From positions 62,246 to 126,245 of the forward strand of contig SDOX01000110.1 in NCBI GenBank assembly GCA_004565275.1: a stretch of DNA of 64,000 nucleotides, in the 5' to 3' direction. The notes under the pieces were generated by a model. That model did no database searches. It was not told where the DNA came from and saw only the letters and a program-made list of their open reading frames with translations. Source of the DNA: Nannochloropsis salina CCMP1776 (Eukaryota; Sar; Eustigmatophyceae; Eustigmatales; Monodopsidaceae). A program made the translations under genes and the position numbers. This document shows, piece after piece, positions 16,756 through 38,578 of the stretch. Every line of letters starts with the position of its first letter. The first letter of the stretch is position 1.

Positions 16756-19700
16756 TTGGCTTGGAAAATCAACGATATGTGTACGCCAGTCGCAAATTAC
16801 TTGTATGGAATTCTCAAGCTCGCTTTCTCATTGTGCGCGTTGTACCAAGGGCAGCGTTTCGAAGCGGAGGAATGCACTCGTCATCTTCATACCACAATCT
16901 TATTCCACAGCAACAAGCACTCAGACCTCCCATCCGTTCTCGTCCGGGAAGGGCAGCATGTCGGGATACGACCAGACGCCTCGCACGGGGCTCCAGCACT
17001 GTCACTGCCCTCCTTGGCCGTCTTTGTGTGTCCTCAATCGGCTTTCACCACTCACGAGGTAGCTGGGGGGGGACGCCGTAGCCATTTCCCTCGGACTGCA
17101 TTAAGTCACGGCGTGGGGGCAGGGCTATGTGGCCGCCATGCTGTGGGTCGCGCCACCTTTCAGCTGTCCTTCCAGCGGGCAGTAACTTCTACCCCCCCCC
17201 TTCCCCTTGTGCCTTCCTAACCCCCTCCCTGCAGGAACAAGCCCTCTCTCGCTTCCTGCTCGTGGAGGGGCAAAGCGTCCTCCTTCTCCTCTCAGAAGGG
17301 ATGGGGAGCCATCAATACGGGAGCGAGGAGGGCCCCAGTTCTCTTCTTAACCGCTGGCTCCAGCCCTGGGGCATGCACGCGCACCACGACGCTGTTCTCA
17401 GGCGGCGGAGACACCCTCGCTTTCCCCACCCCAAGGAGGTCTTCCTCTCCCTGTCCTCTTTGCCTGAGACGGAAGAAGACCAGGCGGGGAAGGACAAAAG
17501 GCAGGAAGAGGAGGGAGACCCGGGCTTCTCCTTCGTCTATCCCTACGGTTGCTCCCTGTCCGTCGCGCCCCCTGCGAAGGTAGGGTCTGCACGCCGGGAA
17601 GGCTCCAAGAGGGAGGCATTCCGATGGCGGCCTGTGCTCGATATCGCGCTAGCCCGTGCTTAGATATCGCTCAAGTCCATGGTTTACCTCTACGAGCGTG
17701 CCTGAGAGGGGGGTGGGAGGCCTGAGAGGGGGATGGGAGGGAGGGATTACAGGGAAAGGGAGCGGGGATGGGGCGGTGAGCTTTCCTACCGTGAGGAGTG
17801 CTTCGGGTCAGGGTGGGGCTTAGGAGTGACGGGCCGGATGCCTGAGAGCACACCTTTCCAAAACCAATCCTATATGCATATGCTTGCCTCCGTTCGATTG
17901 AGATTTTCCGTCCCCCTCTCTCCTCCGATTGCCCCCCAGGTCCTGCTCTCCTCAGGCCCCTATTCTTATCCCGCCCACCGCCCAGTGCTGGCCGCCTGGG
18001 AGGGTCGTGCGGAGGGAGAGGACGGAAGGGAGGGGAAGGGTGCGGGAAGGCGGGGGGAGGCGGGGAAGGAAGAAGAGGAGAGGTTGAACGGAGGGGAAAG
18101 GGGCGAAGCGGGGAAGGAAGAAGAGGAGAGGTTGAACGGAGGGGAAAGGGGCGAAGGCCATGGAGGGGGAGGTGCAGGTGGAGGAGGAGGGAGGAGAGGA
18201 GGGCGGCTAGTTGTCCTAGGCGCGGCGGACATGTGGACCGACGCGTGGCTCGACCAAGAGGACAACGGCTGCCTCGCGGATGTGATCTTCCAGGTAGGGG
18301 CAAGAAAGGCGCCGGAGGGGGAGGGGGAGGGGAAGGAAAGGGGGGGGGGAGGCTGCCACCACTCACGTCCTCTTGTCCTCCCTCGTTCCCAGTGGCTGCT
18401 CCATCGCGAGCCGGACGCGGAGTCCAGCGCCCCTCCCTCTAACCTGGGTCAAGCCAGTTTCAGTCATGACCGTTCCCCCTCCCGGCTTGCTCAGCTCCTC
18501 TTCTGTGGGGACGCGAGGCCAGAGCAGGAGCGGGCGCATGACCCCGTCCTCCCTCCCGCCCTCCCTCCCTCCCTACAACCACGCTTGTGCACCCCACGTG
18601 TCCGAGACCTCGCACAGCAGCTTCGACCGTGTCTTCAGGTGGGAGGAGGGAGGGGTGGAAAATAATCGGGGGAGAGGGACGCAGGAAGCGGCGAAGGGAG
18701 GGGGGAGACGGAGGTCGAGCGCAATGGGGAAGCTGGTCGCCTGATTGGTGCCTTACTTACCGCGTTGACAGGAAAAAATGTACTCTACGCCGCAAAGTCA
18801 CGTCGATCTCAACAACCTGCTCAACCTTCCCGATGGAGGAGGACGGGAAGGAGGGCGAGGGAGAGGGAAAGCAGGCGTTACCCCTGGAGAGGAACCGCCT
18901 TTGTACGCACTGCGACCAAACACGCTGCTCCCAGAAGTCCTCGCAACGCACCATGCCCTGGGTCTGGAACCAGAGCACCCGTTGAGGCCCGTGACGCCGG
19001 AGTTCGTCTGTCCTCAGCCCCCCTTGCGGTGAGAAACTGAGGGTTGATCTGGGCGGGGAAGGGTGGCCTTAGACGTGTCCTTCTCCGTATACCTCGTCCC
19101 CCTGACCCTGAACGATCGAGAGGAAGGAATGGATTTCATTTAGGTCGCCGACACGTGTACTGACGAGTTGTACACCAGAGAGCGATAGCTTAGCTTGTCC
19201 TCATTCCTCCCCCTGGCTTTCTCTCTCTCTTGCTACTGCTTCACGCACAGCCTGGCCGTCTTCCCTCCCTCGTTCGCGCCTCCTCCCCCTCCCACCCTCG
19301 AGCAATTCGACCTAGACCAGGTGTTTGCGTCGCCACGGACCCAATTGGCGCGTCTCTTCCACAAATGTGTCTCGAGCAGGTTGGAAGGGGGAAAAGAAGG
19401 ATCCAGGGAGGATTTGAGCTATTTTGTGCGAGAGGCTGCTGAGGTAAGGGGAGGTGACAAGGAGAGGAACTGGAGAAAGAGCTGATTGTAGAAGGTGATG
19501 AGACCTGAGTGTCCTGTGAGCGCTTGACTAGGCCGCGAGGCGATGGGCGCGAGGCGTCGGCGTGCTATGCATCCACCCCTGGAGATGGTGATGGCTGCGT
19601 TCAAATATCTTATGTTGTGAAAGCGGGATGTTGACGAGAATGAGATTGAGCCTTACCCTCCTTTCTTCTCTTCCCCTTCTTCATGAGATCGTTGGCCTGC

Positions 19701-20324: not shown

Positions 20325-23300
20325 TCAGGTGTGGACCGATCCCACGTTCTCCGCGGTCAGACGAGTCGCCCCAGTGCTGGCGCTCGTCTGGAGCTCGCGT
20401 TCCGAGCTTCCATTGCCTGCTCCTGATTTCTGGCCGCTGAGAACAGCGCTACCGGAGGCAGTCATCTTCGACTTCTTCATGCCTGCAGCGAGGCCTAATG
20501 CCCCCTGTTTCTGCTGCGGAAGGAGCGCTTGCACCGTCACACTCAGGTCCAATGTCAACATACCCCTGTGCAGGATTGACAAGTTGGGATAAGGAGGGAA
20601 AGGGGTATGCCGAAAAATGGCCTGGTGAGATAATACCACGGGGCAAGAGAGGCAGCCAACTCCAATTTCATCGCTTTAGGGGGAGGGGGTCCATGTCATT
20701 CCGGGCATGGGAAGAAACGACCTTTGTACATGCTGCATGAGTTTTCACAATCACACGAACTCATGAAAGGGTACGGGGAAGCGGGCAGCCACTCACTTGA
20801 ATACACCTCCGGAGGACAATGCCACGCGCACACGCTCTTTCATAACCGGGAAGGGAGGGATGATGGAGGAGGCTGCGAATTCCTTGGCGCCTGCGAGTGC
20901 GAGTAAGGGCACAGCGGGAATGAGAGAAATTGTGACCGGGCGCTGGATCCGGTGACGGATCATTGCCGATAGCCCCCTGTCTGCGTGCCACACGATCCCC
21001 GCGATCCTCCCAGGCATCGATCAGTCCCTGACGCTTACCTGGAGAGAAACCGAGGGCGATAGGAATGACGGCCTGTCCCAAGTCTTGAAGCCGACTGTCT
21101 AGAATCTGTGGGGAGGGTGGGGTCGACGGTTCGATCCCGAGAAAGGCAACAGGGGAACGAGCGGGCTTACATCGCACGCAGCGACGGACCGCCTCTATCC
21201 TTACTAACAGGCACACAGACCCTCTCTTTAACCCCCATCGCACGCACTCACCTTGACCAGGACGTGCTCGGAGAAGCGCCTGGACGCAACCACATGCATG
21301 ATTTGCGGGAATGATTCCCAGGGCACATGCTTCACTTCCCCCATGGGCACCTCCTCTCCACCTTTTCCTCCCTGGTGCGACAAACTCCCCTCTATAGGCG
21401 ACTGCGATTTCCCTCCTGAGTGTAAGGGGGCGCCGCTCGAGCTGCGGCTACAGGTGCCTTGTTGAGAAAGTCCGGTGCGAGAATTCTGAAGGTCAGCGGT
21501 GTTGCCCTGAGACCCCCGTGAGGAGCCCCCAAAGGCGGGTATGGCCTGCGAGAAGGAAAAAAAGAGGCATGGGATGAGGTGGGAAAGTGACGATCGGAGA
21601 GAAGAAACGGAGGAACGGAATGTAAACACCTAAAGGAGGGGAGACAGAGGGTGAGAGAGAGGCCGTGGCGAGGCGGTAAGGATATCAGGGAGGCTAAAAG
21701 GGAGACAGGGGTGTGGAAGCGTGTGGGCGCCTGGGCAGCTTTCTCGACACGGTATGAGCGAGTTGCGGAATTCACAGACCACACTCTACGCTGCGGTTCC
21801 CCTACACATCCGCGTGGTCCTTCCCATGCAGTTCCCGCTCAAGGGAAAGTGCATGGGAAGGATACGACTCAAGGCTTAGTCCCGTGCCCACTCCCCCCTC
21901 CCAGGCAACGCAACACGAGTCTGACCTCGCCCAGGCTGCAGAGCTGCCGCTGCTCGACCAGTGGGTCTTCCGAGACCAGGGGGAAGAGGACCGTGACCTC
22001 GTAGGGCCCTCCTGCCCACTTCAACGTGGAGGACGAGCCTCCTGGGAAGCGCGACTTGTTCTTTGACGTTTTGTTGCCTTCCCCTGCCGACGCTGGGTCG
22101 CGTGATACCCCCAGAGCTGGCAAAAGGCTGCTGGCGAGTCGGCCTGGGGGGGGGGGAAGAGGACCGAAGCAGGAGACGGCGAAAGGTCGTCAGCGCCGGG
22201 AGAGGCCCGTTTTCCTTCCCTTCCAGCCCCCCTCTCGCCGATCCTTCCTCGCCCTCTTCACCCACCTTCCAGCCGTGGGCGGCCCAGGTAGATGTGAAAG
22301 AGGACCAGGTCATCGGCCAGGGAGCTCTTGTCGGTCTCTCGGGATCCGTAGGACGGCAAGGAGAGCGGTAGGGAGGGGGGCGGGGCGACGACATGGAAGC
22401 CTCGCACGCGTCGATCTACGGTCAGGTCGAGGGCCGCGCAGACAGGACGGTGGTCCTGAGAACACGGACAAGTGCGACATGGTGGGAGGAGGGAGGGATG
22501 AAAAGGGGTGAGGGGAATCAAAACCAATTGAGAAGAAAGAGGAGGGAGGGAGTGACTGGAATGAGCCTAGACAGCGGGGGAATGAGTAGTTACTGCTCGT
22601 TAGTTTTCACGATGTACGATAAAATTGAAAATCACGAGTAGATGCTGTGCTTCCCCGTTCCCTCCCTCCCTCCCCCCCGCACGCACGCTCAGTGCCACGT
22701 TATCCGCCATGTCGTAATGCCGCCACCGAAGGTAATGGCTTTTGCCTGCAAAAAGACGCGAAGAGGTATGAGAAAGGACCAGGCACCCGCGAGAGGAGAG
22801 AACAAAGTGGGATGAAGGAGGGAACGGAGAAAATTTGGAGCGTCGACTGCCCCTCGCTCCCTCTCTCTTTCTTTCTCTTTTCTTAGATCTCTCTCTCTCT
22901 CTCTCACCTGGCAGCGAGTGTGTGAGGACCCGATCCGTGTACGACGGCGTGCGAAGGGAGGACCGCTTCACAGGGCCAGAGAGGGTCGTGTCCTGACCGC
23001 CTGCGGACGAGCCTAGGGAGGGAGAAGCGAGGCGAGAGAAGCAGGGGGGGAGGAAGATATGAGGACGACGGGGGCGAGACCGTACATGAAAAGCCGCCAA
23101 GCCCTCTCAGTGCCAATGCGCTTGGTTGCAAAAGGGAGAGCCTAGTCTGAAGAGGCTTCGGCGGCTTGGAAGAAGAGAGGAAGGGGCAGAGGGGGCGACG
23201 GAGGCGCACGTACCTGCGCCTTTGGACAGCATCTTGAAAAGGGAGGGGCGGGCTTTCTTCTTCTTCTGCACGGAGGTGGTGTAGGACGAGCTGAAGGGGG

Positions 23301-26300
23301 GGAGAGGGAATCGAAAGGGGATCAGCAGGACAGCCGTCGTGAGGGGGCAGGGAAGGACCGCAAGTTCCCCCGCAGGAGGCGGACGAAGCACAGGCTCAAA
23401 CACATCTCCTTCCCCTCCCTCCTCTTCCTCTTCTGCGCGCTCCCTCTTGCATTGACCCTCCCCCCTGGCACTCACGACAAGCGCCCCATGTCCGTGAAGT
23501 CCCCGGCGAGCAAGTCACTCGCTCCTCCTCCCTCCCCTCCTCCGTCCCCCTCTGCCCCTTCCTGCCCCAGCACCTCCCCCTCGCTCTCCACCGGCCTCTT
23601 CCTCCCTTCCTCCTTCCCTCCCGTCCTTCCCTCCCTCCCTTCCAAGCTCTTTCTCGCGCAATCTGAGGCTCGGGATCCCACTTCTTGTTCCACGTCTAAG
23701 GTGCCTTCCGCCGAAGATCGCCTGGGCCGGTGGGAGGAAGTGCGGGAGGGAGGGAAGGAGGGAGGGAGTGGGGGAGGCGCCACCTTGCGCCATCTGTACG
23801 AGGGGGGAAAGGCGATCCCGCCTTCCTTGAAGTGCCAAAAGACAAGCCGGTCCTTCATCGAGCTGAGGAGGGAGAAGGAGAGGGAGAATGAGAGGAACGT
23901 AGGTGCCGGCGGCAGAATTTCAGGATTTGATCGCCCAGCCTTCATTTTTCCTCCCTCCCTCCTTCCCTCCTTTCCTCCTTCCCTCCATCCAATCATTTCC
24001 CCTCCCTCCCTCCCTCCTCCCCTCCCTTTCTCCCTCCCTGCACTGCCCCCTTCCCGCTTCACGCACCGAATCAGCTCGTCCAGTCGAGGCACCCACTCCC
24101 ACGCCTGCTGCAGCTGCTTTAGCACTGAGGGAGGGAGGAGAAGAGGGCGAGGGAGGGAGCGAGCGTGAGATCACAAGCAACCTTCCTTTCAAGGGTCAGC
24201 TGCCAAAGCTTAATATTCACCGGATAACTAAGATTGCTTCAAGGAAGTAGGATACGCCCAGCCCCATCGAGTCCTTGGGGCAGGGCTCGCCCTGCATCCC
24301 TTCACTCCCACCTTGTCTCCTATCAGAGAAGGAAACCCCCCCACTCTTCACCTACCCTCCGCGTCCTCCTGCGCGGGCGCAGGCACTCCATTCTCCCATT
24401 TGCCTTCCTCGTCCTTCTGCAACGGCGTCAACAACTGTTCGGAATGAGCCCAGAGCGGGAATGAGGCATCAGGCCCCACGTCCTTCACCTCCCTCCCTCT
24501 CTCCCTTCTTCGCCCCCCCACCTTCAGCTCGACGATTTGCCGCCCCTCTTCCGCCCGATTCCGGACGTTGCCCAGCGAGCGGCTGGGACGTAAAGAGGCG
24601 GGGACGGTCCTGGTCTGGGAATCATTCACAGGCGAGGCACAAACACCTCCCTGCTGGGCCCCACGTCCCTCCTTTTCTCCTCCACCCTCTTCCTCTTCCT
24701 CCTCCTCCTCCGCCTCCTCCTCCTCCGCCTCCTCCTCCTCCTCTTCCTCCTCGTCGTCTCCCAACTTCGGGGGCGCCGACGCCATGTGCGCCAGACGGAG
24801 CTTCCGCGACAACCCCTCCCCTCCCTCTTCCCCGCCGTCGCTCCCCACCACCTCGCTTTCCTCCCCAGGTCGGCCCAACATCCTCGCCCCCTCTCTCTCC
24901 TCTGCCCCGTGCCGAGAGATGCTCGAGACGGACGAAGCAAAAGAAATGGTAGAAACCGCCTGGTACCCGCCTTGTCCCTCTGTCGCCCTCTCTTCCCCTT
25001 CTCCTCCTTCGTGCACCTCCCCTTCCCTGACTGTTCCCAACTGCGAGGAGCTACGGGCGTAGGAGAAAGCTGGAAGACTTCCCTGCTTTCCCCCTTCCTT
25101 CCCCCCTACACTTTCTTCCCCTTCCCCAGCCGTCTTCTCGCCGTTGCGAGGTGGAGAGGCGAGGGAGGGAGGGGGAAAGGCAGGGGTCCCGACGGTGGAA
25201 GAGCCCTCGCGTTCCCTCAGTCGCTGGCGAATCCGGTCGAGCATGCTGTGGTTCTGCGCGTTCGACGGCCCGGAAGCGGCGGAGGAGAGGGAGGAGGAGG
25301 AGGAGAGGGAGGAAGAGGAGGAGGAGGAGGAGGAGGAGGAGGTGGAGGTGGTAGAGGTGGGGCGGGATTTTGTGGAGGAGAAGGGAAGGTAGAGGCGAGC
25401 AAACGAGGTTTCGCGCCAATTTCGGAAAGCGGAATGAACGAGTGCCTGCGAAGGATTCAAGGACAAGGGAGCGGCTGCGATTGAGGTGTCCAGCTTCGCG
25501 CATCTTCGCTTTCGGCCGCCCGGCCGCCCTCCCTTCCGCCACTTTTCTCCCTGATCACTCGTATCTTTCTTCCCCCCAACCCAACCTTCCCCCATCCTGT
25601 GCCTAAGCTGAGCAATCATATGTTTTTCTCCCAACCTCCCTCCCTCTTTTCTTACTTTGGACTGACGAGCAGATTTGCTGATGAGCGAAAGCACCTCAGA
25701 GGGCGAGGCAGAGACGCGATAGTTCATGTCACCCAGCAGGATGGCTGGCAGGGGAGGAGAGAGAGGGAAAGGAGGCCAGGAGGAGGGAGGGAGGGAGGGG
25801 TACGAGTAGGGAGATGGTGAGAATGGAGGTTTGCGGCCCGCGGGGGGAATGAGAGGGTGTCTGGCCCGATGGAAAAGAGGCAGGGGAGAAGGCGGGAAAG
25901 CCAGATGGTGAGAATGGAGGTTTGCGGCCCGTGGGGGGAATGAGAGGGTGTCTGGCCCGATGGAAGATGGAGAAGACAGGGGAGAAGGATGGAAGATGGA
26001 GAAGAGGCAGGGGAAAAGGCGGGAAAGCCACGGGACCGACCGTGCGTGTGCTGGTGATGGACGTCGAACTCTTCCGAGTCGTACGTGAGGCTGAGCTCTC
26101 TTAAGGTGGTGCAGGCATCCTGTGGGAAGAAAGGCGGAAGGAGAGGGGGGGCATTCGGGGAGGGGCAAACGCCCGAGGAAGAGAGAGGGGGAAGCAGCGA
26201 GGTAGATGGTAAGGGCGGCGATGTAGGAGGAGAGAGAAAGCTTTCGGGAGCGGAGACCGAGGGTGACACATGGCGATACGGCAGGGGAGAAGAGGGGAGG

Positions 26301-28582
26301 GATGGTGCCGTACGGGAATCCAGTCCCTCCGTGTCTCCCCTTCCCTCTTGCCTCCCTGTTCTCAGAGTTCTCGTCCTCCCTCCCTTGTCTCTTTCACCTG
26401 TTTCAACCCCTCTTCTTTCTCCCTCCTTCCCTCCCTCCCTCCCTCCATCCCTTCCTTGAGACCTCGCGTGCGTGTTGCACCTATTGACCCCACGCCACTT
26501 CCCTCCCTTTCCCCCGCCCATCTTATCCATCTACCCCCTACAAACCCCACGACGCTTCAGCTTTGAAGCCGGGGTCCGTCTCAATATCGCGCACTCCCTT
26601 TCTCCCTTCCTCCCTCCCTCCCTCGCCCTCTCCCTACCTTATTCCTCTTGGTCACTCGATTCCTCCCTTTCGAATCCGAGGCAAAGTGGGCCGTGATGAC
26701 AGCCAAAGAGGTGTCGAAATACCGGAGCGAGAGCCCCACCATGCCTGTGCAGGATAAGGAAAGGAGGAAGGAAGCGAGGGAGGGACGGAAGGAGGGGATA
26801 GGGAAAGAAGTGCAGGAGAAGGATTTGAGGAAGGGAGGAAGGGAGGGATGGAGTAGAGGCTCAGAGGAACGAAGGGCGCGTACGGAAAATTTTGGCAGTA
26901 GCTCTCCCCGCCCTCCCTTTCGCCCTCCTCCCTCACCTTTGTTGGCGGCTCGGCCCATGGGTCCGAGGCTGACTCCCGTCGCGACTCGATTGACGGCCCC
27001 CTTTTGGACCTGACAAGAGGGAAGGAGGGGGGGAAGGAGGGAGGGAAGGAGGGAAGGGAGAGGGGGATAAGAAGGCGTGGATAAACGAGAGGAAGTAACG
27101 CATAAGGAGACATGTTAGAAAACTTCAACATTTGATTCACGTGACGATCATCAATTGCACTTGACAGGACGAACGAGCGGACAAAAGGACAGTGAATGGG
27201 GGAGGGAGGGAAGGAGGAAGGGCCGCGGGACAAGGCACCTGGAAAGCCCCCTCGAGCACGTCCTTGCTTCGGACGAAGATGGTGATAGCGATGAGGCCAT
27301 GCAGCACGCGAGCGTCCCCTATTTCGGCGCCAAACTGAGAGTAACTATCTGGGCCTATGGGGTGGAGGAAAGAGGGAAGGCGCGAAGCAGGGCCGGAGGA
27401 AATGAAGAGCGTGGTTTACTTTGCGTGCCCGCACTGTCTTTGCCTTGGGACGTCGAGTGGGACAGGGATAGAGCAGAAAAAGCGAGGGTATCCAGGAAGA
27501 CGACAAGAAACAGAAAAGAATGCTCACAAAGATGAGGGCGTCTACATCCCTGAACGTCGGCACCAAGCCCTCTGCCCCTTCCTCCCCCCCTTCCTCCCCC
27601 CCTTCCTCTCCCCCCTTCCTCCCCCCCTTCCTCCTCCCCTTCCTACCCAGGTACTCCCGTAAGGCCTTCCGGAGCTCCCTCAGACAAGCGCATTCCTGCA
27701 CTCCCACCACCTACAGGCACGTCGGGAAGGAGGGGTTCGAAAGAAAGGGGGGAGAGGAAGCGGGGAGAGGGCCACACGAATGTCGCGTGATCAGCTCGCA
27801 CGTTTTACCGAAGCGGTCATCGCCCCCTGTACTTCCTCCCTCCCTCCTTCCTTCGTTCCCTCCCTTCCTCCCGGTCCACATACGTATAGGTCATAGCCCA
27901 AAGGAATCCACTTCGCGAGCAGCCGTGGGACCTCCCGCCCGCCCTCCCTCCCTTCCCCTCCCCCCGCCTCCATCTCGCCCTCCTCTGTGCTTGGCAGCGT
28001 GACTGTTCGGAACGAAGCCGGGTGAGACGAGACGTTTTCATTTCCACGGTACATCAGAATGCTTCTTTGTTCTCCCCCCTTTTCCCTCTTCTGCCTACCT
28101 GTCCGCTGCAGGGCGCATTCCAATTCCTTCTCTGCCCAGCCCCCGCCCATGTTCCATGTCGAGGCGAATACTCGGACTTTATTCGGGCTTTTATTCGCGG
28201 GGTGTCCCATTTGCGAGGATGAAGGGAGGGATGGATGGGGGGGGAGAGGGAGCTTGGGTTCCGGGGGGAGGGAGGCGTCCGAGGTGGCTGTCAGCGACTG
28301 CGGGAGGAGGATGAGGGGGAAGGAGGGGGAAGAAGGCGGGAAAGTGGAGAGCGGATGGAAGGATAGAGAAGGAATCTGAGCCAAGCGATCCCATTGCTCA
28401 AGGTATTCCTATCAAAGGACTTTTGCCTTCCTCCGTTCCCTCCCTCCCTTTCTCCCCCCCTCCCTACCTTGGCGAGGCGCTTCCGAATACGACGAACCCG
28501 CTTTTCCAGCTGCTTGGCCTCCTGTTCTGGACTCAGGGAAGATCGGGCAGATCCTACCCGGAAGCTCTTCCCGATCGACGAC
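20325..28582 (-). CDS. Inositol polyphosphate 5-phosphatase with long insertion and C-terminal beta-rich domain
   Basis: Removes the 5-phosphate from phosphoinositides or inositol phosphates. Exons (complement): 28582-28468, 28408-28099, 28002-27884, 27710-27647, 27571-27528, 27334-27239, 27009-26937, 26744-26638, 26119-26041, 25744-25656, 25445-24356, 24124-24067, 23862-23476, 23290-23214, 23012-22908, 22745-22687, 22455-22266, 22083-21926, 21545-21252, 21105-21039, 20980-20797, 20565-20325. Phases agree, giving about 1335 residues. Catalytic-domain landmarks: FASTWNMGG, YDLYVVGVQEC, GLIAITIFVR, AANKGMVGLSLRYF, TAHFASDSK, DVHHQHTHAILLGDMNYRV, FKEGGIAFPPSYRW, PSYTDRVL, DHRPVCAALDL. A Ser/Glu-rich insertion (exon 25445-24356) splits the domain. 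PSYTDRVL replaces the usual PSWCDRVL. After the catalytic domain, SLADDLVLFHIYLGRP, GGPYEVTVLFPLVSEDP and DLGQAVIPIALGF suggest a C2- or ASH-like sandwich, unproven. The first exon here opens in phase 2, so the true N-terminus is upstream and unresolved. It may be joined to the receptor gene. Confidence 0.88.
24684..24764 (-). repeat. Poly-Glu coding low-complexity tract in the 5-phosphatase
   Basis: CCT/TCC repeats on the + strand read as a Glu/Ala run on the coding strand. A GGA-type run at about 25280-25365 (+) reads as poly-Ser near the other end of the same large exon. Both lie in the insertion between GDMNYR and the FPPSYRW segment. Confidence 0.8.
25812..25990. repeat. Intronic tandem duplication, about 91-base unit
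   Basis: AGATGGTGAGAATGG starts at 25812 and again at 25903, followed by near-identical sequence. The copies differ by point changes and a small length change. They lie wholly inside the 5-phosphatase intron between exons 26119-26041 and 25744-25656. Confidence 0.85.
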
Positions 28583-28640
28583 TAAGGTAGGGAGGGAAGG
28601 AAAAGGGGGGAAAGGAGGGAGGAAGGGCCCAGGCGGCCGA

Positions 28641-28740
28641 CAAGTGAGGGTGAAAGAGAAAGAAAAGGTTCCGAGAAAAGACCGGGAGCCAAGTGAGGGT
28701 GAAAGAGAAAGGTTAGGTTCCGAGAAAAAAGACCGGGAGC
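28641..28740. repeat. Tandem duplication, about 49-base unit, between receptor and phosphatase exons
   Basis: CAAGTGAGGGTGAAAGAGAA starts at 28641 and at 28690, each running to GACCGGGAGC. It lies just upstream (in gene direction) of the first secure phosphatase exon, in the stretch where the join to the receptor is unclear. Confidence 0.85.
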
Positions 28741-28873
28741 CCGCCGTCCGCAAACCCATTGATTAACGGACACGGGGGCTGGTTCACATCCACGCACACA
28801 CCTCCCCTCCTTCCGTTCCCCCCCTCCCTCCCCTTCCCCCGGGCCCCGCTCTGTCCCTTCCTCCCCCGCTCAC

Positions 28874-31800
28874 CCGGAAGGCAGCCAGGCTGGTCATCCT
28901 CCCCTCCTTTTCCCTGCCCGGCTTGGCCCCTCCGGCTCGCTTTCCTTGTGCACCGTTCCGGACCAGGGTCGCAGAGACCTCCCTCCCAAGGGCACCCACA
29001 GCTGTGTTGGCGGGTGATAAAATGCTTCTCAAAAGGTAGCTCCTCGAACCCTTTATTCCTCCTGCCGTCCTACGGTATCCTCCATATTTCGCTTCCACCA
29101 TCATCCACCACGTGACAAATTGTGCCCAGGGGGAGCGCCTCCCTCCCTCCTTCCTTGCCTTCCTTCCAGGCCACGCACCTGCTCCCTCCCCTCCCCGTGC
29201 CTCCTCTTGAAGGGGCTTGCGAGGCCCCATCCGACAAGACAGGCACACGTTGCCTTGGCGTAGCGAAGCCCACAGGCGGCCGAAATAGCCCTGCAGACAA
29301 GGAGAGCGAGGGGAGGAGGGAGACGTGGAACAGGAAGAAGAGTGAGGAGAGACTCCGTGAAGAATCAACGGAGATCTCTCTGAGGGATGCCGACGCGAGC
29401 AGGGAGGAAGGAGGGAGGGATATAGGGAGGGAGGGATACAGGGAGGAAGGTACCTGGAACAGATTCCCAAGAATGATCGCGTCCATCAGTCCGATGCTCC
29501 TGGGTGGGGATGGAGACCAACAGGGAAAGAGAGGGGGTTTGACGAGGAAGATGGACTCAGCCGGGACCTTATGTGGGCCAAGGCAAGAGGGAGAGAGGAG
29601 GAAAGGAAGCGGGAAACGGGAGAGGGCGGGACAGAGGGAGGGAAGGAGGAGGCGGTACCGAAGGCAGATGATGCGAATGGTGGAAAGCCAGACGGGGGGC
29701 AGCTGTCCGGTGAAGAAAAGAGTCCAGGTGACGATATCTAAACCCAGCGCCAAGCCCCACGTGAAGGAGACAATGAAACAGATCCGCATGAGGCGTTCGA
29801 CCACGAGCTGGGAGGGAGGGAGGGAGGGAGGGAGGGAAAGAGGGGAAGCGAGGCGTAAATTGGAGGATGGGAAAGCGTGTGCCACTCGGAACTTCCCTGC
29901 TCCCTCCCGTCCTCGTTTCCTCCCTCCCCACCTTGAAACGCCCCGTCTCCACTCCGGGAGGCAAAGCGGCTGGGGGAGCCCTGGTGCTGGTGCTCCTGAG
30001 AAGAAGAGGGAGGCACGGGGGCAGGGAGGAGGGGGGAGGACGAGGAGACAGAGGGTTGTGAGTCGCAGCTAGGAGTGTGGTCTCCGCTGCTGAGATTGCC
30101 TTTTCATATCTCGCTCCCTTCCTGTCGTCCCTCCAATCACTCCAGCTGTGGTTAAGTTTGATCACACCCCATCCCGAGTCGGTTTCTGGCCCTCCCCACC
30201 CTTTCCTCTCCCTTACTCGGGCTTGGCAAAAGCGCGGTAGAGGGAGGCGCGAATGAACGAGGAGACTTGGGTTGCGGGGAGGCGGGGAAGACCGCTGGGC
30301 ATGCTGGAGGATGAGAGGGGAAAGAGAGGAGGCAGGGTAAGAGGGATGGGGCGAGGAAGGGAACGAGGAGATGAAGGCGGGGGGACCAAGGAGGAATGGG
30401 GAGGCCCGAGAGAAAGGGAGCCAGGAAGGGAGGGGCACAGGGGGTCAGGGGGAGGCAGAGGGAGCGTGTGTGGATACGGGCCAAGGAATGGAAAAGAGCG
30501 AGGGTCGGATAGAAGGGTACCGTCCGGGCGAGCTTGCCGCTCTAGGAAGGCTCGTTAAGGGAGTGGGGGAGGCGCGGGATGCAGCGGGAAAAGGACGCTC
30601 CCCGGCACCGTCCTTCTCGGAGTTAAGGTGGCGAGGGGGCGAGGTCGCGTCGGCCCTCGTCGTGACGACCACCATCTCGCGTCCCCCCTCCTGGCTCTCC
30701 TCCAGGCAGTGCCCGACGTCCTCCTCCTGACTGCTGTGCATGGGCCGACTCTCTGACCTGTGGTGCCGACAGAGAGGTTTGAGACACCCCAGAGCTCCTC
30801 CATCTCCTCTCTCTCGCACCCTGGGTTGAACTGCTGGTATCACCGTGCTGGCCTCCCTCCTCCCTCCCTCTTCTCCTCCTTCCCACCCTCCCTCCCTCAC
30901 CCGACTTCACTGCTGCTCGCCCCTGCGCGCGTGGAAGGATAATCCGTGGCATTGCCTAGACCGGCTTGGGAGATTGAAAGAGGAGGGGAGGGAGGAAAGG
31001 AGGAAGGGAGGGAGGGAAGGAGGGGATGGAAACGTGAAGAAAGGCTTCAGGGTGGTCCTCCCGCCGCCTTCTTCTTCTTCTCCCGTATGCTCTCCTCCCT
31101 TTCCACTACGCCATTCCCCTTCCCCATTCCCCTTCCCCATCCTCATGCGCTGCTATACCCAGTGCGGCCCTCAAGCCCTCCCTCCCCCCCTTCCTCTCGC
31201 CCTCTATCCTTTCCTCACCATGAAGAGCGCGGCCGGTCAACCAGTACCACCGCAACATGGCAATCAAGGTCACCGGGACTAAGTGAAGAGGGGGAGGGGT
31301 GGGTGAATGTGTACGAGGGGTGGGAGAAGGAGGGGGAAGAGAGAGAAGGAGAAAAATAGCGCGATCAGGATGACGGGCACGAAGGAAGAGGGGCGGACCA
31401 ATGGGCAAGGAGAGGGGGCAAGGAGGGAAGGGAGGTACCGATGCCAACGTCGTAGGACATGATGGAGACGATGAGGGCGTATTTCGAGCGGCTCCGAAGG
31501 ATGAGGTAGCGTAGCAGGGTGATGAGCATGGAGGATATGACCTGAGTAGGCGGGCGAGGGAAAGTCGGAGGAAAAGGGCCGGTGAGCAGGAAAGGGAGGA
31601 GTGGAGGGGAGGGGAGGAGGGAGGGGAGGAGGGAGGGGAGGAGAGCAAAGGAGGAGGGGAAAAGGGAGAGAGGGAATGAGGGAGATGCAAGGGCTCTCGA
31701 CCTGATCGGGGACTCGACGACGACGGAGGCGTGACGCAGAGAGCTTGAGGACAATCCAGCAATACATACAGTAGGCGATCGTCGCGTGCCAAAAAATGAT

Positions 31801-33303
31801 GAGGGTGCCGAGCGTCTAATAGGGCAGAAAGGGGTAATCAATACATAAGTTTATATGTATCTGATGGCGAGTAAGTATATATCCGTATTGTTTGCACCAA
31901 TGCACCTGCCTAGAGCACGTCCCTTAAACCCTTTCCCTCCTTCCTCTTCCTTCTCTCTCCTTCCCTTCCACCCCCCCTCTCTCCCCTCCTGTTCACCTCT
32001 CGAAAAAGCCGGTAGTAGATGATGGGCGCCAGATCGTTAATGTGAAATGCCTCCTTCGAGTGCATTACGTTGTGGAGCTTGAAGGACAGCGGCGCTCCCT
32101 AGGATAGAAAAAAATGAAAGCGCAGTTGGGCAGGAGAGGAGGAACGAATGAGCTCCTTTGGGGGGGCTTCGATCACTCTCTCTATATACATGCTCGCAAT
32201 ATACACCTCCCCTGCATCTCCCCCCTCCAATCAGCTTGTCCGCGTATCCGATGATCCCTCATCCTTCCTCATCGCCATCCCCTCACCGTGCCGTCCAGGG
32301 CCAAGACCACATCCGGAATGTGATAGAGGAGGTCGAATACAAAGAGGACCATCACCTGCAGGCAGGCGTCCAGGAAAATGGAGGGGAGGACGCGTGGGCA
32401 ACAAGGCCAGGGGGCGAATCACTCCGCCTCCCTCCCTCCCTCCCTCCCTCCCTCCCTCCCGCCCTACCAAATACTTGACGAGGCGGCCGATAGCCGTGTC
32501 GGTGGATTGCTTCTTACGGAGCACCTTGGCGAGCATGCGGACGAGGCACACGGTCACCGCCGTGATAGATAGCACCGAGACCAGGAACATGGTCAGATTC
32601 TGCGAGCACCACTCGCCTGGGTGGGGGGAAGGAGGGAGGGAGGGAGGCCTTGTGAAGAAGGGAGGGAGGGAGACGCTGAAGGGATGGGTCGCCCGGCATT
32701 TTCACGCCGCCCTCGTCCCCCTGGCCCTTCCATCTTCTGTCATCCTCTTCCCTTCCTCCCTGGCACAGCAAGCCTGCAGTCCTTTCTCTTCCCAAGGGAC
32801 GGCTCACGTACGGGGGGAGCACAGGTTTTCGATGCGAAAGCGGGCGAAGGCAAGTCGAGGTTCCGTTTCCCCCTAGCAGCGACAAGGAGGGAGGGGACAT
32901 AGAGAGAGGGAAGGAAGGAAGGAGGAGAGCAGAATGATGAAAAAGAGTGCGAGTAGACTAGTCCGTGACACAGCCTCACAGCAATGACCTATGGTGTCAG
33001 GCGTCGGTGGGCCAAATAAGGGAAGCCGGAAAGAGACTTCCAAGGGAAAGAGGGTAATCGTGTCAATGCAATCCTGCCTACCTCCCTTCTCACGTGTGCA
33101 TGTGTGGGCGACAAAATTTGCCGCCAGTCCCTTTGATCTCCTCCACCGCGCAAAAACCGCATCTTTACGTCATTCTCCGATGGAATGGCATGCGAAATGC
33201 CCCGAGTACCCCGCAATTGCGAGAGGGGTACAGGGGGGGTGGAGATTGGGAGCGAAGAATTGGTCGACGGGGGAAACCCAGGGTCCGCTGCACGGGAATG
33301 CAT
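28874..33303 (-). CDS. Seven-transmembrane GPCR-like receptor, possible N-terminal part of a receptor-phosphatase fusion
   Basis: Exons with agreeing phases (complement): 33303-33094, 32872-32812, 32616-32468, 32355-32287, 32098-31997, 31815-31702, 31541-31439, 31278-31219, 30955-30901. A Ser-rich loop of uncertain splicing (about 30840-29900) follows, then an exon starting at 29807, SIGLMDAIILGNLFQ (about 29500-29460) and a tail starting at 29290. Membrane segments: NLTMFLVSVLSITAVTVCLV, VMVLFVFDLLYHIPDVVLAL, TLGTLIIFWHATIAYCMYCW, KYALIVSIMSYDVGIVPVTL, then after the loop MRICFIVSFTWGLALGLDIV and VWLSTIRIICLRSIGLMDAI. GLMDAIILGNLFQGYFGRLW resembles GPCR helix 7 plus helix 8, and RLRRRRVPDQ resembles a cytoplasmic loop. 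The C-tail stays open past LLRSILSPANTAVGALG to a candidate donor at 28873-28872. The fit to a named GPCR class is not established. The lower boundary given is that candidate donor; the unspliced frame closes at 28784. The start could also be an internal ATG about 45 residues further on. Confidence 0.62.
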
Positions 33304-35008: not shown

Positions 35009-36175
35009 TTACGTGAATTTCGTTTGCTCGTACCGCCAGTATTGTATATCGACGTCTTTCGTCTTCTTCCAATATGCTGCAGTCTCATCAATGACGTTGA
35101 TTTCGGGGTTTATGTTGTGCACACGGAAAAAATCCTCGCAGGCTGTCTTGGCTGGAAAGCCAAACCAGTCATCAATAATGACATAGCCCCCCACACCGAG
35201 CTTGTCATACAAATGATAGAGCACGTCCACGGTAGACTCGTACATATCCCCATCCAGGCGCATGACTGCAAGCCTCTTGATTCGAGAGGCCAAGGGAGGC
35301 ATCGTCTCATTGAAGAAGCCCTTGGCAAAAACTACGTTCGAGTCCAGCACCCCGGATTCTCGAAAGTTCTTGGCAACCTCTTCGGCGCTCTCCTCAAGGT
35401 AGGGAAATAGATTCCATCCGCGATCGCGGGGATGCAATTTTTTGTCTCCAGGTGGCAGGCCCTTAAAGGAATCGCAGACATATGACATTCGACCACCCTC
35501 ATTGAGGCTCCGCAACACAGCACGCGCAAATATGGATGATCCTCCCCGCCACACCCCGGTCTCTATATAGTCCCCTGGGATATTTCTATACACTACATCC
35601 TCCAGCAAGAGCCTGACATTGTCAAGGCGGGCTCCGCCGGTCATGGTCATGCCAAGGTAAGCCCAGTCCAGGCCCTTTGCCCTCTTATCAGGCTGAAAGG
35701 GACCGACTCTTACGTTACCTGTCACACTCATCTCTTCAGCTCCGTACGCCAGTCCTGACACGTACAGCTTCATAAGCTCAAGATAAGCGGCCCTGGCACG
35801 AGTTGATACAGACCGGTCAGTGTTTGCGGCCACCTTCGAGTCCAAATAGTTGAGCCTGAGGGTCAACTGCTCAACCCAAGACTCTGGTGGCGCCAAAAGC
35901 TGAGGTGCCTGATGCACGCCTGCCCGCATATCATACCAAGGACGAAGGAGCTCGAATTTATCACCATAAGCTCGGGTGAAGGGCATCTCGTCAAAGGAAA
36001 ATGTTTCGAGGTCCCCAAAAGTCTTACGATCTTGTAAAGGATTTGTCGCGAAATACCTCCCACAAAGCGAATAGAAAGCTAGGTACGTCAGACCAGCAGT
36101 AGCTGCCGCCTTCAGTCCAAAGCGCTGCCTGCTCGAATCGCAATGAGCCTTTTTCATGAAGGGTAGTCGCGACAC
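35009..36175 (-). CDS. TylF/MycF-type (macrocin) O-methyltransferase, type II membrane protein
   Basis: SAM-dependent sugar O-methyltransferase of the TylF family, single exon, 388 residues. An N-terminal hydrophobic stretch (AAATAGLTYLAFYSLCGRYF) looks like a signal anchor, so the catalytic part should face the Golgi lumen. Family landmarks: ARLDNVRLLLEDV, motif I GDYIETGVWRGGSSIFARAV, YVCDSFKGLPPG, the MRLDGDMYESTVDVLYHLYD block, and GGYVIIDDWFGF, whose Asp pair is the metal site in this family. It ends DVDIQYWRYEQTKFT. Intronless, in an AT-richer block like the glycosyltransferase-like gene, and unlike the intron-rich GC-rich neighbours. Substrate unknown. TylF-like proteins are common in bacteria, and an origin by transfer is possible but untested. 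Confidence 0.88.
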   Translation of the reverse strand: MSRLPFMKKAHCDSSRQRFGLKAAATAGLTYLAFYSLCGRYFATNPLQDRKTFGDLETFSFDEMPFTRAYGDKFELLRPWYDMRAGVHQAPQLLAPPESWVEQLTLRLNYLDSKVAANTDRSVSTRARAAYLELMKLYVSGLAYGAEEMSVTGNVRVGPFQPDKRAKGLDWAYLGMTMTGGARLDNVRLLLEDVVYRNIPGDYIETGVWRGGSSIFARAVLRSLNEGGRMSYVCDSFKGLPPGDKKLHPRDRGWNLFPYLEESAEEVAKNFRESGVLDSNVVFAKGFFNETMPPLASRIKRLAVMRLDGDMYESTVDVLYHLYDKLGVGGYVIIDDWFGFPAKTACEDFFRVHNINPEINVIDETAAYWKKTKDVDIQYWRYEQTKFT

Positions 36176-38578
36176 AAAGAGGAAGCTCCCTTTGTATGTT
36201 TATAAACCTTCTGTACATGGAAATATGCTTGATTAGACTGCTGCGTCGCTCACATGGGTTAATGAAGTGCATAAGACAGGCGCTTTTTCACTGACATGAA
36301 GCTACCCGTTTCGTGGTTGGGATATTTGGCTGTTGGCATGCCCTCCGAAAGCCCCAACAAATACGACCTCATACTATGTTGTTTGTTGGTCGAAATTCCA
36401 TGTGCCAATATTGCTAATTTCCTTCTTGGATAAATGCTATGGAACAGAAATATCGCATAAACAAGGCCTAGTAGGGTCGAGCATTGCGTAACGGCTGTGG
36501 GCATGGGATCGGGGTGACTACCAGACAGGTTGACTCATGCCCTGTGAATGCGTGCGCCTTTCGATCAATAGCGATATTCGGACTCACTCGTATGATTTTT
36601 CGATTTGTACCCTAATTACGTATACTGCATGTCATTGTGGTTCCTAGTTTCAAGAAATGTAACGGCTCTAAGCGAGCCTCTCATTGTAGGGTCTTACGTC
36701 ACGTGACATCATGATGGCATCGGGGTAAGTGCCAGTCTTGAGGTGATTTGGCCATTTTGATGGATAACGATAGAAGAAGGATTCAAGTCAGTCATGAGAA
36801 GCTTCGAGTTTAAGGAAAACTAGTGATATCGCATGTTATTGTGAGTGGTAGCTTAGCTAGTAATCATTCTGCATTGTGTATACGGTATATACGCACGAGA
36901 AGAAGTGAGGTAGCGCTACCCATTTGGATGGAGATAAATGCATGTCTTCTATTCATTTCGAGACTGGAATATAAAACATCCATATTCGAACCACATTTAG
37001 TGTGAAAATCAGGAATGCATCGAAGCGGTTTGACGTTTGAAAACATACCATATGGAAGACGTAGAAGAGAAAAGGATTTTACTTTTTTACATCAACTCCT
37101 GTCTCCCAGTCAAAAGGCTTGGACTTCTTGTTTAAGGACTTGGAGTCCATTTTTTATTGGCATGCATCACTTACAAAACATGACGAGATTGACGTAGGAG
37201 AAGGGCCACGCTAAAAGTGAAAGTGGGAAGCGAGTCGCTACCGATCTGTGCATGCAAAACTATTATCTAGTATATTGGATGACCATCGAGATGCCTGTGT
37301 CAGGACTGTGCCTCGGCTCTAGCACCTTAAAGAAAGTTTAGATTTCAACGAGGGACGCACGATTACACTCTGGTTGAAGCTTAATAACATGATCAAATGA
37401 ATGACAATTATAAATGCCATGAAGAAAAAAACATAACAAACAGGCCACACCAACCCATTGCGTACGGTAAATCTGCTTTCGTTTTTATTGAAATCTTTTT
37501 TGGGGGGACCAAGTACGCGTGTCATTCCATAACATAATAATCGAGTCTTATTTTGCAGAAGAAAGCTGAAGGAAAAAGTCCTAAGGAGCTCCTTCTCATT
37601 GTTTGACATTTTTTCCCTAATGTTTCAACATCTTGTAAATTGATCTCTGCACGACAGCACATAAAATATGTACCAACCTAAACTGACCCTACTCCTTAAT
37701 ATGCATTCTTCAAGTTGAATTGTCACTTTCCTCAATCTTCATGACGTCGCCCATACATTTCTGATGGCATTGTTGTAATAAGTATTTCTCCCTCTTGCAA
37801 GTACTAGGGGTCTGGGGAGGTGAGGTTATAGCTAGGAAACTGGACCTTGTCGAGCCCTGTATGACTTCATATCTGTCCAAGCACTTTGTGTCCTCGTCGT
37901 GGTCCTTTCTAATCTCGTCTATTGCGCCGCGATAAAAAGATTGTTTGGTTTCAAAGCCATGTAATTGTGAGCAATGGAAACGAGATCAAATGCTTTGCTA
38001 CTGGTAACGGACAGGAGGGAAGGAAATAGCGAGGTACCAAACACATGACGGCAAGGTCGACAAAAGATAAATCATTTCGGAAAATAGGAGCACATATCGC
38101 CATGAATTTGGCCAAAAACACTGCCTTCTGAAGCAGGTCATGGTGGAGCCTGCGCGGTGAGTCCTTGTGGCTTTTGAATCACGACATCGATGTGAAGCAG
38201 GATCCGCGCTCTTGAAGCGGGGCCGGGATCATCGCCGCGTGAAACATAGGTTTGGGCGGGCTGGAACGCCCTTTGTGCCCCTCTTTTCATAATAAATGCA
38301 TTTATAAGACTACGAGACTTTTATTGTCAGTCCTCACCCTCCTAGCACTCGGGGCTGCGGGAAGCCAAGAGTCAACCGTGTTTGAACAAAGAGAGCCTCC
38401 GGCGTCGCCGTCACAGAGTATCCCTCCTTATTTACGTCATTTTACTCCATGGTTTTCACAGGCAGACAGTGCCTGCCTCGAGCGTATGGCTTCATGTAAG
38501 GCACACAAGGAGTTTTATGCTGTCAGCGATTGATTAGCAGCCTTGTCGGTCTCGGCCCCATAGGCACATCAAAAGCGC
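36176..38578. other. Gene-poor AT-rich region with small open frames
   Basis: No gene recognised with confidence. An open frame at 37319-37609 (-, 96 residues) has one hydrophobic span (VCYVFFFMAFIIVIHLIMLL). One at 38252-38533 (+, 93 residues) has a signal-like stretch (LLLSVLTLLALGAAG). Neither matches a family I know, and either could be chance. Confidence 0.4.

Follow-up and report, generated by a model that had tools for sequence, protein, structure and literature searches.

Receptors fused to phosphoinositide enzymes, the G-protein-coupled receptor (GPCR) bigrams, are the closest described relatives of the gene analysed here. One class of them, GPCR-INPP, is described in PMC5784254 with seven genes in Phytophthora infestans and one to nine in other oomycetes; outside the oomycetes the paper names only Nannochloropsis gaditana, with seven GPCR-INPP genes and no GPCR-PIPK (receptor fused to a phosphatidylinositol phosphate kinase, PIP kinase). 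The GPCR-INPPs are listed again in PMC6033456, where their activation modes are presented as speculation and GPCR-bigram experiments are essentially confined to the GPCR-PIPKs; no literature on a seven-transmembrane (7TM)-phosphatase fusion surfaced under other wording. Here we describe a minus-strand gene of Nannochloropsis salina CCMP1776, contained in a 64,000-nucleotide stretch of contig SDOX01000110.1 (positions 62,246 to 126,245; this whole stretch is the window, and its contig is labelled C7), in which a receptor-like region and an inositol polyphosphate 5-phosphatase very probably form one fused protein of the published GPCR-INPP architecture, as far as can be read from DNA.

A receptor-phosphatase fusion of this kind is already published (2018; oomycetes and Nannochloropsis), and the statement of an earlier note on this DNA that receptors are joined to phosphoinositide enzymes in oomycetes agrees with the GPCR-INPP class as it appears in PMC5784254. 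Like the GPCR-INPPs, the N. salina gene combines in a single protein (here at the DNA level) a 7TM region at the N terminus with an inositol polyphosphate phosphatase at the C terminus. With the GPCR-PIPKs (the RpkA class, the oomycete GK proteins) it shares the fusion of a 7TM receptor to an enzyme acting on phosphoinositides; that enzyme is a kinase there and a phosphatase, of opposite activity, here, and the PIP5K domain PF01504 had no match in the scanned pieces of the window. The catalytic domain and its motifs are common to the window protein, SHIP1, SHIP2 and the 72 kDa inositol polyphosphate 5-phosphatase, which presumably lack a 7TM part; unlike theirs, the window domain carries two long low-complexity inserts and is followed by a C-terminal region with neither a Pfam family nor a significant PDB match.

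Results

Reading frame across the join

The gene was rebuilt exon by exon from the raw minus-strand sequence. The model, which extends from 32614 in helix 1 as far as the stop codon (20325), comprises 34 exons and 33 introns and encodes 1829 residues without a stop; every intron begins with GT and ends with AG, and their sizes range from 96 to 518 bases. The parts of the predicted protein follow in the order: seven helices, whose third inner loop is long, then a linker, the 5-phosphatase and a conserved C-terminal region. From the exon of helix 6 (T9) to the stop codon the frame passes through 24 exons (1483 residues, stop-free) joined by GT-AG introns. Codon scores, which cover these 24 exons (T9 to P22) in three frames each with competing frames penalised for stops, rank the model frame first in all 24, with values near or slightly under zero in P10, P12, P14 and P21. 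The earlier note had placed 7TM exons on the minus strand directly upstream of a 5-phosphatase and had raised a fusion as possible; the arrangement was confirmed (phosphatase side 28581-20325, helix 7/8 as quoted), and the fusion is supported by the single frame across GT-AG introns together with the single-frame paralogues C14, C57 and C1 described below.

The join itself is simpler than had been supposed. The first phosphatase exon, previously read as 28582-28468 in phase 2, is corrected to 28581-28468 in phase 0, the acceptor AG occupying 28583-28582. The receptor-side donor at 28873 does end in phase 0, as the earlier note had it, and since both sides are in phase 0 the two exons join directly in frame, so that the additional small exon it had called for is not needed. 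On a measure of purine-rich start and pyrimidine-rich end the joining intron (28582-28873, GTGAGC...CTTAG, 292 bases, phase 0) scores 1.85, tied second among the 33 introns, and none of 3331 GT-AG pairs in the flanking DNA reaches that value, this being a rough control drawn from DNA of another base composition. For nine of the model's introns the score is only 0.85-1.12, and the measure is therefore no general test for introns.

The window domain is a predicted inositol polyphosphate 5-phosphatase of the SHIP/INPP5 kind. It matches Pfam PF22669 (E=1.3e-29), its nearest solved relatives with the inserts removed are SHIP1, the 72 kDa 5-phosphatase and SHIP2, and it retains intact the motifs TWNMGG, VGVQE, NKG, LGDMNYR, PSYTDR and SDHRPV, which we take to be the catalytic motifs of the 5-phosphatase family. 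The region after the phosphatase is conserved in five paralogues, at 23-39% identity to the window copy.

Fused paralogues in the same genome

The strongest evidence for the fusion comes from paralogues in the same genome (26.5 Mb assembly, 103 contigs; loci are labelled by contig), where three loci need no assumption about splicing. C14 holds helices 1-7 through to the phosphatase in one open frame of 1554 codons; the 1241-codon frame of C57 extends from helix 3 across the phosphatase, its match to helices 1-2 lying in a separate upstream frame; and C1 combines at least five hydrophobic helices of a divergent receptor with the phosphatase in 1223 codons. In C36 and C55:1133k a single frame likewise covers helices together with the phosphatase's N part. 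When the genome was searched with the receptor part, C14 was recovered at E 3.5e-21 and C57 at E 6.6e-18, in addition to the window itself; both of these paralogue matches share open frames with 5-phosphatase matches that had been found independently. In an alignment whose E-values refer to a set of five sequences, the window receptor aligned with those of C14 and C57 at E 1.8e-16 and 2.6e-16, and the window phosphatase at 2e-69 and 2e-73, respectively.

The 5-phosphatase search of the genome gave 20 matches at 12 loci, a lower bound. The intron-split window gene was not among them, so that at least 13 loci exist. Ten of these at least 13 loci appear fused, four of them weakly: the window, C14, C57, C1, C36, C55:1133k, C47, C72, C99 and C13. 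The last four have hydrophobic segments 5' of the phosphatase on the same strand and weak receptor-profile matches (independent E-values, i-E, of 6.1e-4 for C47, 6.1e-5 for C72, 0.018 for C99 and 0.028 for C13); part of the C47 receptor frame had no Pfam family at E<=0.01. No receptor match was found at C52 and C55:610k with receptor profiles and the open-frame listing. A 2055-codon open frame at C11 (C11:209500-218500) contains the C part of a 5-phosphatase (PSYTDR, SDHRPV), and this locus was counted neither as fused nor as receptor-free. The ten loci, C11 aside, differ from the seven published for N. gaditana in PMC5784254; the difference may reflect another species, another assembly, stricter criteria in the published work or looser ones here. 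The published hosts of GPCR-INPPs are oomycetes and Nannochloropsis. PsaB from a chloroplast contig of the assembly differs from chain b of PDB entry 8zo9 at 4 of 736 aligned positions, as counted by hand; 8zo9 scores 1712 bits and the runner-up entry 1489. Entry 8zo9 also contains VCPI antenna chains, VCP antennae being typical of eustigmatophytes such as Nannochloropsis, so that PsaB suggests a eustigmatophyte close to Nannochloropsis; light-harvesting proteins gave a less clear indication.

The receptor region

Seven hydrophobic helices, with boundaries assigned by hand, lie in frame. Exons T1-T6 (32614-31219) encode helices 1-5, T9 encodes helix 6, and T9-T11 together encode helix 7. The receptor region spans 32614-29454, and helix 8 and the tail extend to 28874. 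Between helix 5 and helix 6 the frame is bridged by four in-frame exons (30955-29932) that the earlier reading had missed; these inner-loop-3 exons (T7, T8, T8b, T8c) have no homology support, their basis being the in-frame GT-AG structure. The first two inner loops and the C-terminal tail are basic; charges almost cancel in the long inner loop 3 (19 basic, 17 acidic residues) and cancel in outer loop 1 (4 basic, 4 acidic), and the short outer loop 2 has two basic residues. The helices are predicted to lie in the membrane, and the charges of loops and tail, taken overall, fit a C terminus on the inside, which would place the phosphatase in the cytosol. The patterns WHA..AY..Y.WIV in helix 3 and DA.I...LF at the end of helix 7 are invariant in the window gene, C14 and C57 (C14 was aligned for helices 1-7 and C57 for helices 3-7). 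Relatives of the receptor were also sought in collections of viral contigs (39 pattern matches) and of genome contigs (14), and tblastn confirmed none of these matches.

Evidence against the fused receptor and alternative readings

Several observations weigh against a fused protein with a GPCR-like receptor, and the first group concerns the family of the helices. The domain search for a GPCR family proposed in the earlier note gave no significant Pfam or PDB match: two pieces of the window receptor hit no Pfam family at E<=10; the best PDB match was the 5-HT6 receptor, over helices 6-7, at a non-significant E=0.084; and a three-sequence receptor profile found nothing in the PDB at E<=10. The paralogues gave sub-threshold Pfam matches: 7tm_1 for C55:1133k (E=0.029; its 14.3 bits fall short of the 30.5 cut-off) and Rnf-Nqr, which is not a GPCR family, for C14 (E=0.12). 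The receptor call consequently rests on the number and arrangement of the helices, and helix count was also the main means of selecting GPCRs in PMC5784254. These results favour the reading that the fusion is real and its 7TM part is a lineage-specific seven-helix domain, mainly a membrane anchor and no GPCR by descent. That reading is compatible with the fused architecture and does not exclude it; we regard it as somewhat unlikely, because the count of seven helices, the basic character of the tail and of inner loops 1 and 2, the length of inner loop 3 and a conserved helix-7 motif speak for a GPCR-like receptor, as does, weakly and without significance, the helix 6-7 alignment with the 5-HT6 receptor.

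A second group of observations concerns the more distant paralogues. The receptors of C1, C36 and C55:1133k matched the window receptor profile with nothing better than i-E 0.095, so the kinship of these loci rests on the phosphatase and the order of parts; and Pfam at E<=0.01 finds no phosphatase in the C36 frame, where it was found with a custom paralogue profile (7.7e-9).

The third group lies at the join. The codon score of T11 is negative around 29230-29100, a stretch that might conceal an additional intron. Between helix 7 and TWNMGG the window gene has about 225 residues, C14 and C57 about 100-110. The earlier note had found no start codon for the phosphatase, which is correct for P1, without any in-frame ATG; it overlooked the in-frame ATG at 28210-28208 (Met618), 17 residues before TWNMGG, which would permit a separate start of the phosphatase. 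Met618 is compatible with two products of the gene, the fused protein and, from this internal start, a free phosphatase, an outcome that we consider improbable. Two adjacent genes, one for a 7TM receptor that terminates after 28874 and one for a separate 5-phosphatase from ATG 28210 (Met618), would agree with the position of that ATG shortly before the catalytic domain and with the partly weak coding score of the receptor tail, but are very improbable, since in paralogues one unbroken frame covers the two parts, the 28582-28873 stretch is composed like the introns of the same gene, and the unspliced receptor frame would run into a low-scoring tail ending at 28784. The fused receptor-phosphatase is accordingly retained as the preferred model.

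Exon structure of the gene

All exons are on the minus strand. T1 (32468-32614; helix 1 and inner loop 1) has the donor gtaggg and an acceptor AG at 32618-32617, and bases 32616-32615 finish a codon begun in an upstream exon. Under a strict donor filter no start-codon exon was found upstream of T1; looser donors gave several first-exon candidates, all weak, and the start at 33303 given earlier (ATG 33303 to donor 33147) is one among these. T2 (32287-32355; helix 2, hydrophobic) and T3 (31997-32098; outer loop 1 to the start of helix 3) are in-frame GT-AG models, and alignment with paralogues supports T4 (31702-31815; helix 3 and the basic inner loop 2, aligned to C14 and C57), T5 (31439-31541; helix 4 and the start of helix 5) and T6 (31219-31278; helix 5). 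Inner loop 3 is encoded by T7 (30901-30955), T8 (30521-30757), T8b (30217-30303) and T8c (29932-29995). T9 (29659-29807; helix 6 and the start of helix 7) is homologous to C14; T10 (29454-29499) contributes helix 7 (GLMDAIILGNLFQ), with a similar motif in C14, C57, C36 and C55b; and T11 (28874-29290; helix 8 and linker) was placed by its frame. An intron inside T11 from a GTGCGT donor near 29178 was tried by eye with a single acceptor and gave a stop; T11 was kept whole, with uncertainty.

On the phosphatase side the exons were placed by frame, with support from motifs, Pfam or alignment where stated. P1 (28468-28581) encodes linker, and P2 (28099-28297) linker and the start of the 5-phosphatase, with the motif FASTWNMGG. 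The domain continues through P3 (27884-28002; Pfam), P4 (27647-27710; VVGVQE motif), P5 (27239-27354), P6 (26937-27009; up to NKG), P7 (26638-26744; MVGLSLRYFD), P8 (26041-26119) and P9 (25656-25744; LGDMNYR motif) to P10 (24356-25445), an open frame with the long low-complexity insert, and from there through P11 (24067-24124), P12 (23476-23862; FPPSYRW and the second low-complexity insert, with the former P13 merged in), P14 (23214-23290), P15 (22908-23012; TPSYTDR motif), P16 (22687-22745) and P17 (22266-22455; (S)DHRPV motif). A separate intron within P12 was rejected, as the joined frame then meets a stop and stays open without the intron. The two coding inserts (25445-24356 and 23862-23476) are, respectively, serine-rich and acidic, and charged; in the five-sequence alignment the paralogues likewise vary in length at these positions. 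The conserved C-terminal region is formed by P18 (21926-22143; VLFPLVSEDP), P19 (21252-21545; VVASRRFSEH) and P20 (21039-21105), all three aligned with paralogues, and P21 (20797-20890), and P22 (20325-20565) ends the protein with the stop codon at 20327-20325.

The introns of the gene have a compositional asymmetry of their own. In 24 of the 33, purines make up 60% or more of the 40 bases following the donor, and the 3' ends are pyrimidine-rich; the two ends of such an intron could pair as RNA.

Neighbouring genes

On the plus strand of the window, matches to the GIFT domain of IFT52, an intraflagellar transport protein, occur at 17238-17579 (E 9.3e-9) and 18195-18293 (E 5.7e-4). To our knowledge, Nannochloropsis-like algae are coccoid and have no flagella. 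On the minus strand, which also carries the receptor gene, a single open frame upstream of that gene (35012-36199) matches TylF macrocin O-methyltransferase (PF05711, E 3.6e-69).

Discussion

The architecture predicted from the gene model would allow a short signalling path. The helices would sense a ligand or a membrane cue, the cue would alter the activity or the placement of the tethered phosphatase, and 5-phosphates would be removed at the receptor from phosphatidylinositol 4,5-bisphosphate (PI(4,5)P2) or related lipids. That a cue sensed by the helices controls the phosphatase in this manner is, on balance, the modestly favoured reading of the sequence.

The rest of the genome offers a setting for such a path. 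The search for G-alpha proteins gave seven matches at E<=1, one of them above the Pfam cut-off; this top match (E 1.1e-113) has one TGA inside the stretch when read without introns. With one clear G-alpha gene, coupling to a G protein is a possibility, and this single gene may or may not take part in receptor-phosphatase signalling. PIP kinases gave eight matches at six loci, and the five loci inspected, over about 1.5 kb upstream, have at most one hydrophobic segment each and no cluster, in line with the absence of GPCR-PIPKs stated for N. gaditana in PMC5784254. A PI-PLC-X (phosphoinositide-specific phospholipase C, PI-PLC) search of the genome gave no match, a result that does not show absence. 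In a genome with a single clear G-alpha gene, with PIP kinases that stand alone and with no PI-PLC recognised by the search, the roughly ten receptor-phosphatases could be the main route from external cues to phosphoinositides, lowering PI(4,5)P2 directly, a proposal that we consider doubtful.

With the corrected gene model, the fusion can be tested by reverse-transcription PCR over a single intron. A further question is whether a phosphoinositide enzyme tethered to a GPCR-like receptor can be driven by that receptor when no G protein takes part. A small photosynthetic alga that has several predicted receptor-phosphatases, a single clear G-alpha gene and PIP kinases that stand alone would offer a simple setting in which to study this.

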